From Verrucomicrobiota bacterium JB022 (GTDB taxonomy: Bacteria; Verrucomicrobiota; Verrucomicrobiia; Opitutales; Oceanipulchritudinaceae): 64,000 bases of DNA. The notes under the pieces are model-generated. The model saw only the letters and a program-made list of their open reading frames with translations. It had not been told where the DNA came from and made no database searches. Positions 49,440 through 51,163 of the stretch are shown one piece after another. The DNA is taken from positions 1-64,000 of the forward strand of contig JAUTCQ010000021.1 of NCBI GenBank assembly GCA_030673845.1. The letters are read 5' to 3'. Every line of letters starts with the position of its first letter. The first letter of the stretch is position 1. The translations under genes were made by a program, and so were the position numbers.

Positions 49440-49459
49440 AAAGCCCATTCCACCCAAAA

Positions 49460-49489
49460 ACGAAGAAGTCAGCCTTCTTCGTTTTTTTT
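49460..49489 (+). terminator. Rho-independent terminator after ccsA
   Basis: ACGAAGAAG pairs with CTTCTTCGT (9 bp, short loop), followed by seven T. It separates the cytochrome c operon from lexA. Confidence 0.9.
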
Positions 49490-49509: not shown

Positions 49510-49554
49510 GCATACGCTAAACATCTTGACACTGCAGAGATGTTTACGTATACA
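49510..49554 (+). promoter_or_regulatory. lexA promoter inside a large dyad, probable LexA operator
   Basis: A consensus promoter, TTGACA (49526-49531), 17 bp, then TATACA (49549-49554), overlaps an inverted repeat. Inner arms TAAACATCT (49518-49526) and AGATGTTTA (49538-49546) are perfect over 9 bp with an 11-bp spacer. Outer arms GCATACG and CGTATAC extend it, with a one-base bulge and one mismatch. A repressor bound here would block both promoter elements, as expected for an autoregulated LexA. Only 10 bp separate the -10 box from the lexA ATG. Confidence 0.8.
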
Positions 49555-49564
49555 AAGCATCACT

Positions 49565-50200
49565 ATGAAGGACCTGACCTACCGGCAACAGGAGGTGCTC
49601 GGCTACATCCAGATCCACATGCGGGATCATGGGACGTGGCCCAGCTTCCGCGAGATCGAGCAACACTTCGGTTTCAAGAGCACCAATGCCGTGATGGGTC
49701 ATATTCGCGCCCTGGAGCGCAAGGGCTACATCAGCCGCGTGCCCGGCCAGGCGCGGACCTTCCGCATCAACCTCGCCCTCGATGACGAGGAGCAGCCGGT
49801 AGAGGCGGTGGACGTAGTGGAGATCCCCATCTACGGGCACATCGCTGCGGGCTACCCCGACGGCGTGGAGCCAGCCGGCGAGATCGGGCGTCTGCAGATC
49901 GATATCGACACGGCGGGCATCCGCCGCAGCCGCCGCTGCTTCGCACTCAAGGTGCGCGGCGAAAGCATGATCGACGCCGGCATCCTTGACGGCGACACCG
50001 TTATCATCGAGCAATCGCCGCCCCGCCATCTCGATATCGTAGCGGCGCTGATCGACGGCGAGACGACGCTCAAGCGCTTCATCGCGCCCGCAGGCCGCGC
50101 GCCCTACCTGAAGGCAGAAAACCGGAACTACCCGGAGCTCTACCCTGTCTCTGAGCTCGTCGTCCAAGGCGTCGCGAAGGCCATCGTCCGCAACCTTTAG
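49565..50200 (+). CDS. lexA: SOS repressor LexA
   Basis: A 211-residue repressor-protease. The N-terminal winged helix begins MKDLTYRQQEVLGYI, with recognition helix region FKSTNAVMGHIRALERKGYI. The self-cleavage site is A95-G96 in HIAAGYPDG; the catalytic dyad is S134 (RGESMID) and K170 (TTLKRF). The ATG at 49565 matches the LexA start; a longer open frame begins inside ccsA and is not used. The transcript predicted from the promoter would have almost no 5' leader. The DNA methyltransferase follows by 15 bp, so it may be SOS-induced with lexA. Confidence 0.95.
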   Translation: MKDLTYRQQEVLGYIQIHMRDHGTWPSFREIEQHFGFKSTNAVMGHIRALERKGYISRVPGQARTFRINLALDDEEQPVEAVDVVEIPIYGHIAAGYPDGVEPAGEIGRLQIDIDTAGIRRSRRCFALKVRGESMIDAGILDGDTVIIEQSPPRHLDIVAALIDGETTLKRFIAPAGRAPYLKAENRNYPELYPVSELVVQGVAKAIVRNL

Positions 50201-50215: not shown

Positions 50216-51163
50216 ATGGGAAAAGTCCGTGCCCCCCGCAACCGCACCTTGACCCTGAGTGCGGCTGATCGCGAGCGTTTACAACCTCAGCTACTGAAGC
50301 CAGAGGCGCTGGCGTCTACGTTGCAGCCCGGCATCGTGCAGGCCGAGTTTGAGCAAGTGGTGCCGCACCTGCCGGAGGCCTCCTTCGACCTGCTGATTCT
50401 CGACCCACCCTATAACCTCGCCAAGAGCTTTAACGGGCAGAAATTCGCCCGCAAGCAGGCGCCCGCCTATACCGAGTGGCTGGAAATCATCCTGCAACCG
50501 CTGCTTCCCCTGCTCAAGCCGACCGCGACCGCCTATATTTGCGGCGATTGGCTGACCTCACACTCGATATTCGAGGTAGCCAGCCGCCATCTGCACGTGC
50601 GCAACCGCATTACCTGGGAGCGGGAAAAAGGTCGTGGCGCCCTCCAGAACTGGAAGAACTGCACCGAAGACATCTGGTTTTGCACCTGCGGGCCGGACTA
50701 CTATTTTGACGTGGAGGCCGTGAAGCTGCGCCGCCGCGTGATGGCCCCCTACCGCAATGACGAAGGCCAGCCGAAGGACTGGAACCGCTCGGCCGAAGGC
50801 AATTACCGCGACACCTACCCCTCCAACATCTGGACCGACATCACCATCCCCTTCTGGTCGATGCCGGAAAATACCGATCACCCGACCCAGAAGAGCGAAA
50901 AGCTGCTCGCCAAGCTGCTGCTTGCCAGCTGCCCGCCCGACGGCTGGGTGCTCGACCCCTTCCTCGGCAGCGGCACCACGGCGGTCGTCGGCCACAAGCT
51001 CGAGCGCAAGGTGCTGGGCATCGAGCGCGATCTCGAATACGCCCTGCTGGCCCAGAAACGACTGGAGCTTGCCCAGACCCAACCGGGGATTCAGGGCTAT
51101 TCCGATCAGGTTTTTTGGGAGCGCAACAGCCAGCCTCCCCAAAAACGCATCTCCGGGTCTTGA
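50216..51163 (+). CDS. Orphan DNA methyltransferase (beta class, adenine-N6 or cytosine-N4)
   Basis: A 315-residue SAM-dependent methyltransferase. Motif IV, DPPYNL, comes early (about 62-67), the target-recognition region follows, and the SAM-binding motif FLGSGTTAVVGHKL lies near the C terminus (about 253-266), the order of the beta class. DPPY allows N6-adenine or N4-cytosine methylation. No restriction enzyme is adjacent. It lies 15 bp after lexA without a terminator and is probably co-transcribed. The recognition site is unknown. Confidence 0.88.
   Translation: MGKVRAPRNRTLTLSAADRERLQPQLLKPEALASTLQPGIVQAEFEQVVPHLPEASFDLLILDPPYNLAKSFNGQKFARKQAPAYTEWLEIILQPLLPLLKPTATAYICGDWLTSHSIFEVASRHLHVRNRITWEREKGRGALQNWKNCTEDIWFCTCGPDYYFDVEAVKLRRRVMAPYRNDEGQPKDWNRSAEGNYRDTYPSNIWTDITIPFWSMPENTDHPTQKSEKLLAKLLLASCPPDGWVLDPFLGSGTTAVVGHKLERKVLGIERDLEYALLAQKRLELAQTQPGIQGYSDQVFWERNSQPPQKRISGS

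Follow-up and report, generated by a model that had tools for sequence, protein, structure and literature searches.

Introduction

In Bacillus subtilis and other Gram-positive bacteria, the LexA box is GAAC-N4-GTTC (PMC3323433). The boxes at recA, imuA and dinB in the genome studied here, as well as those in the lexA promoters of its relatives, share the half-sites, the spacing and the register of the B. subtilis-type box. However, the outer bases here are T and A (TGAAC...GTTCA), and the copy at lexA in this genus is degenerate. A second described system is M. tuberculosis, where lexA is leaderless, i.e., transcription starts at, or directly beside, the start codon (PMC2897130). The layout at our locus is similar, but here it is read from promoter spacing only.

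LexA motifs vary between phyla. For the Verrucomicrobia, Erill et al. 2016 reportedly describe the motif TGTTC-N4-GAACA, and tandem boxes in lexA promoters are said by the same authors to create the other register between them. Our locus belongs to the same phylum and has this other register between tandem boxes, at 49541-49554. In contrast, the SOS genes tested in this order have boxes in the opposite register, TGAAC-N4-GTTCA. A limited literature search found no paper on the LexA boxes of this order, although one may exist. A genus in which recA, imuA and dinB still have the ancestral box but the lexA promoter has been rebuilt raises the question whether such a change starts at autoregulation.

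Results and discussion

The lexA gene and its neighbours

The window, i.e., the whole stretch of 64,000 nucleotides that was analysed, contains lexA at 49565..50200 on the plus strand, with the ATG at 49565. The gene encodes 211 amino acids with a LexA DNA-binding domain and an S24 peptidase, and both PF01726 and PF00717 were found, as in a full-length LexA. In a profile search, residues 1-211 match TIGR00498 with 150.3 bits, against a curated cut-off of 110.95. The motifs AAGYP (from residue 94, with the Ala-Gly), GESM (from 132) and TLKRF (from 168), which we take to be those of cleavage and catalysis, are all present, and the protein may undergo RecA-stimulated self-cleavage. STNAVMGH, from residue 39, is presumably the DNA recognition helix. 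Genomes of Opitutales and Puniceicoccales, within the Verrucomicrobiota, contain the closest relatives of this LexA.

Between lexA and the upstream ResB/CcsA-type genes lies a hairpin, AAAAACGAAGAAG TCAGC CTTCTTCGTTTTT, followed by TTT (49456..49486, plus strand). It was missed by the automated terminator rule but is a likely terminator of the upstream genes, which argues that lexA has its own promoter. Downstream, 15 bp after lexA, starts a gene that a domain search identifies as an N6/N4 DNA methylase (50216..51163, plus strand) and that is probably co-transcribed with lexA. Of the 74 lexA loci examined, only those from this genus (two genomes) have a methylase gene next to lexA, and this gene may therefore be co-induced with lexA.

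A conserved promoter with a short predicted leader

The consensus promoter TTGACA-17-TATACA that the sequence-only reading had placed before lexA is confirmed on the plus strand, with the -35 hexamer TTGACA at 49526..49531 and the -10 hexamer TATACA at 49549..49554, separated by 17 bp. A simple promoter scan reported nothing at the lexA promoter because its rule demands a T at the end of the -10. The gap of 10 bases between the -10 and the ATG, from which a leader of only a few bases had been predicted, is also as described.

For comparison, 73 lexA promoters were gathered, of which 65 are distinct in their last 60 bp. The set leaves out loci truncated at the start (L076), L078-L080, those from L083 onward (mostly distant groups) and a partial match (L214). 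TTGAC lies 30-60 bp upstream of the start in 61 of the 65, the exceptions being L038, L047, L208 and L212. When the -10 position is assumed from a 17-bp spacer, 50 of these 61 promoters leave 9 or 10 bases before the ATG, so that a near-leaderless lexA appears to be a family trait. From this geometry, conserved in the relatives, the start point can be predicted and the lexA mRNA is expected to be near-leaderless.

The LexA box of the lineage

In nearly all relatives, TGAAC-N4-GTTCA lies inside the spacer between the -35 and -10 of lexA. Allowing one change, a TGAAC half is present at offset 6-9 from TTGAC in 59 of the 61 promoters, and the two exceptions are the promoter studied here and that of its sister species. 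By hand count, the best TGAAC-N4-GTTCA box has at most one mismatch in 43/61. The same box precedes SOS genes in the genome studied here: imuA, which from the reading of the sequences heads an imuA-imuB-dnaE2 group, has the perfect palindrome TGAACGGGTGTTCA (C21:257735-257748), recA has TGAACACGTGAACA overlapping TGAACAAACTGACA (C13:264191-264212), and dinB has TGAACATTCGAATA (C6:92928-92941). Further, relatives with canonical boxes have the same recognition helix.

The sequence-only reading had suggested that this lineage may have a different LexA operator. Because its own SOS genes and the lexA genes of its relatives carry TGAAC-N4-GTTCA, and the helix is the same, the operator does not appear to be new; as judged from the sequences, the lineage has a box of the GAAC-N4-GTTC type of Gram-positives. 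The same reading had found GAAC-N4-GTTC not obvious, which is correct at lexA, where only weak sites occur, but not for the genome, where strong boxes stand before recA, imuA and dinB. The absence of a clear box at lexA thus reflects local decay.

A box model trained only on the lexA boxes of the relatives was used to score other genes. With a threshold score of 11, a site is found upstream of 19 out of 22 recA genes and all four imuA genes, compared with 1 of 14 main dnaE genes, used as control, and 1 of 63,987 positions within the window. The recA count excludes L115 and L117 as duplicates of L217 and L221; the three misses are two Cerasicoccus loci, which score 9.1 and have a visible TGAACA box, and L223, where the locus ends at the contig end. 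In the IMS set, which mixes dinB and imuB, 8/20 reach the threshold. Four of six second dnaE genes do so, including that of this genome (L158, 11.8), where the match is the end of a dispersed repeat and unconvincing as a box.

In the wider class, for the 30 recA loci with the best recA scores among 57 genomes, only the two loci of this order's family f11 were judged to have a clear TGAACA box, and TGTTC-N4-GAACA is not confirmed upstream of recA. In family f13, also of this order, one recA locus (L237) has a site with two mismatches that is an equally good match to either register; no box with fewer than three mismatches is seen at the remaining three. TGAAC-N4-GTTCA may thus not hold at recA across the whole order. 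For Opitutales genomes, it provides a box definition that would be overlooked if other motifs were expected.

In 13 of the related lexA promoters (L062, L064, L066, L067, L069-L075, L077 and L082), a full GAAC-N4-GTTC (GAACATNCGTTCA) is found near the start as a second box, so that lexA is preceded by two LexA boxes in tandem. One of these loci, L082, is labelled Akkermansia muciniphila; its lexA and promoter match freshwater Opitutae, and the assembly is probably mislabelled or mixed.

A probably eroded self-operator

The remnant of the spacer box, box A (49533..49546, plus strand), reads TGCAG-AGAT-GTTTA where the family has TGAAC-N4-GTTCA. It stands at the position aligned in the 61 promoters, contains the right arm of the dyad discussed below, and scores 4.7. 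Its left half is lost in the genus, being TGCAG here and TGTTG in the sister species; GTTTA/GTATA, the right half, and TATAC, the -10 half, remain at the family box positions. Box 0 (49518..49531, plus strand, TAAAC-ATCT-TGACA) lies over the -35, contains the left arm of the dyad and is genus-specific; its score of 5.8 is reached by 11/63,987 window positions. The weak box B (49549..49562, plus strand, TATAC-AAAG-CATCA) covers the -10 and the predicted start point. Finally, the near-palindrome TGTTTACGTATACA (49541..49554, plus strand) combines the right half of box A with the left half of box B; in the sister species, it is the perfect TGTATACGTATACA.

The model of the relatives' boxes finds four overlapping weak LexA-box-like sites here, at 49518, 49533, 49541 and 49549. 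In shuffles with both hexamers fixed, weak sites cluster as highly in 0.04% of 20,000 cases for this promoter and 0.06% for that of the sister species, given a threshold of 2.5 bits that was picked after the scores were seen. The best single-site score is unconvincing against the shuffles (P 0.03-0.07). With the one-strand model, the best sites score 4.7-5.8 versus 11.6-19.5 in the relatives, i.e., the promoter has no self-box of normal strength. As no site at lexA falls within the relatives' range, LexA may bind too weakly to have an effect.

The genus comparison consists of two genomes, i.e., one sister species. From the left arm to the ATG (49518-49564), 44 of 47 positions are identical between the two, compared with 501 of 633 (79%) in the lexA coding sequence, and identity drops to background level upstream of 49518. 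That the conserved block begins at the left arm argues for constraint on this arm in the genus. A 37-bp element was found in 2 of the 273 genomes of the order, both of this genus, and is absent from the other 271.

Proposed evolution of the lexA promoter

The lexA promoter very probably carries a LexA autoregulatory site. We suggest, as a reasonably probable explanation, that it is a weak, multi-site, LexA-autoregulated and near-leaderless promoter, whose spacer box was eroded in one genus. The ancestral layout would have been TTGACA-n-[TGAAC-N4-GTTCA]-nn-TAWACA, with one LexA dimer in the spacer and a second, weaker box over the -10. The genus could then have lost the left half of the spacer box by decay, so that a row of weak half-sites akin to TGAAC/GTTCA was left or gained: TAAAC before the -35, GTTTA in the spacer and TATAC at the -10. 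LexA, with its helix unchanged, would still bind this promoter, although more weakly, perhaps as two adjacent dimers with centres 15-16 bp apart. Bound LexA would block RNA polymerase at the -35 and -10 hexamers. Repression of lexA would then be lifted early in the SOS response, while strong boxes remain at recA, imuA and dinB.

The chief rival of this weak-operator explanation is loss of lexA autoregulation in the genus. The conserved 47 bp would then be a strong constitutive promoter together with the site of another factor, and the half-sites would have no function. The weak scores at lexA, next to strong boxes at recA, imuA and dinB, fit such a loss, and so does the left arm upstream of the -35, whose novelty and conservation would be expected of a new regulator site or promoter element. 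However, loss leaves unexplained why four weak LexA-like sites cluster beyond the shuffles and why GTTTA/GTATA and TATAC are retained where the family has its boxes, and we consider it unlikely.

It can also be speculated, with similar reservation, that we see an operator turnover in progress, where the strong self-operator has been lost in favour of a new overlapping set of weak sites including TGTWTACGTATACA, with the rest of the regulon unchanged. If true, this would be a snapshot of a LexA motif change that begins at the promoter of lexA itself; if the sites at lexA are merely weak, it is ordinary promoter drift.

A further proposal is that the lexA operator is now TGTWTACGTATACA, in the opposite register (GTWTA-N2-TATAC facing outward) and recognised by the same LexA. 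It is similar to the motif TGTTC-N4-GAACA reported for Verrucomicrobia, and the palindrome is near-perfect here and perfect in the sister species, where the change in the right arm improves it and breaks the dyad. In a symmetric model of all sites, it is also the top site of this promoter (7.08, compared with 6.96 for box 0) and scores 9.21 in the sister species. However, recA, imuA and dinB of the same genome are in the TGAAC-N4-GTTCA register, and part of the palindrome is explained by the -10 alone, because its TATACA is also one of the halves. A genome scan with TGTTTACGTATACA, allowing up to three mismatches, gave 71 matches against 51 for the reversed control, so there is no clear enrichment and the matches are diffuse; among the matches listed, the only SOS-linked place besides lexA is the recA promoter. 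This makes a switch of register at lexA rather improbable.

The dyad

The perfect 9-bp inverted arms first noticed at this promoter, TAAACATCT (49518-49526) and AGATGTTTA (49538-49546), are present with a loop of 11 bases and overlap the lexA promoter. The outer arms had been described as matching too; instead, GCATACGC and CGTATAC pair only with a shift of one base and have not been preserved in the sister species. The dyad joins TAAAC, the outer half of box 0, to GTTTA, the right half of box A, and this spacing, TAAAC-N19-GTTTA, is compatible with no single LexA dimer. In the sister species, the right arm is mutated to AGATGTATA; the single base that differs breaks the dyad but perfects TGTATACGTATACA.

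When the local 160 bp were resampled 2000 times with a first-order Markov model, 0.85% of the resamples contained a perfect 9-bp inverted repeat with a loop of 3-30. The window holds 36 such repeats, overlaps counted, against 13.4 expected, and the dyad alone is therefore only mildly unusual. Recurrence before other SOS genes, a test proposed beforehand, was not found: with up to three mismatches the dyad occurs at one place per genome, at lexA only, in both genomes of the genus, and the reversed-pattern control likewise gives one place. Both the number of such repeats in the window and the equally frequent control would suit a dyad that arose by chance in A+T-rich promoter DNA, but the left arm is kept in the sister species though all sequence further upstream has diverged, which makes chance very unlikely.

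Genome scans and a dispersed repeat

A genome scan with TGAACNNNNGTTCA, allowing two mismatches, gave 688 matches against 638 for the control, dominated by chance and the dispersed repeat. Two further exact palindromes were not counted as SOS sites; one, at C1:62861, is in an open reading frame, and the other, at C15:12632, has an ABC transporter gene on one side and a ribosomal protein gene on the other, as named from their sequences.

The repeat itself is a largely palindromic element of ~110-170 bp that starts with GAACAGGAGTTAA, ends with TTAACTCCTGTTC and recurs in the genome, with copies at L188:1350-1515 (G000:C2:34468-34630), C15:261865, C20:103312 and C21:255400. Its ends are LexA-box-like with one mismatch, and one copy lies directly before dnaE2 (L158).
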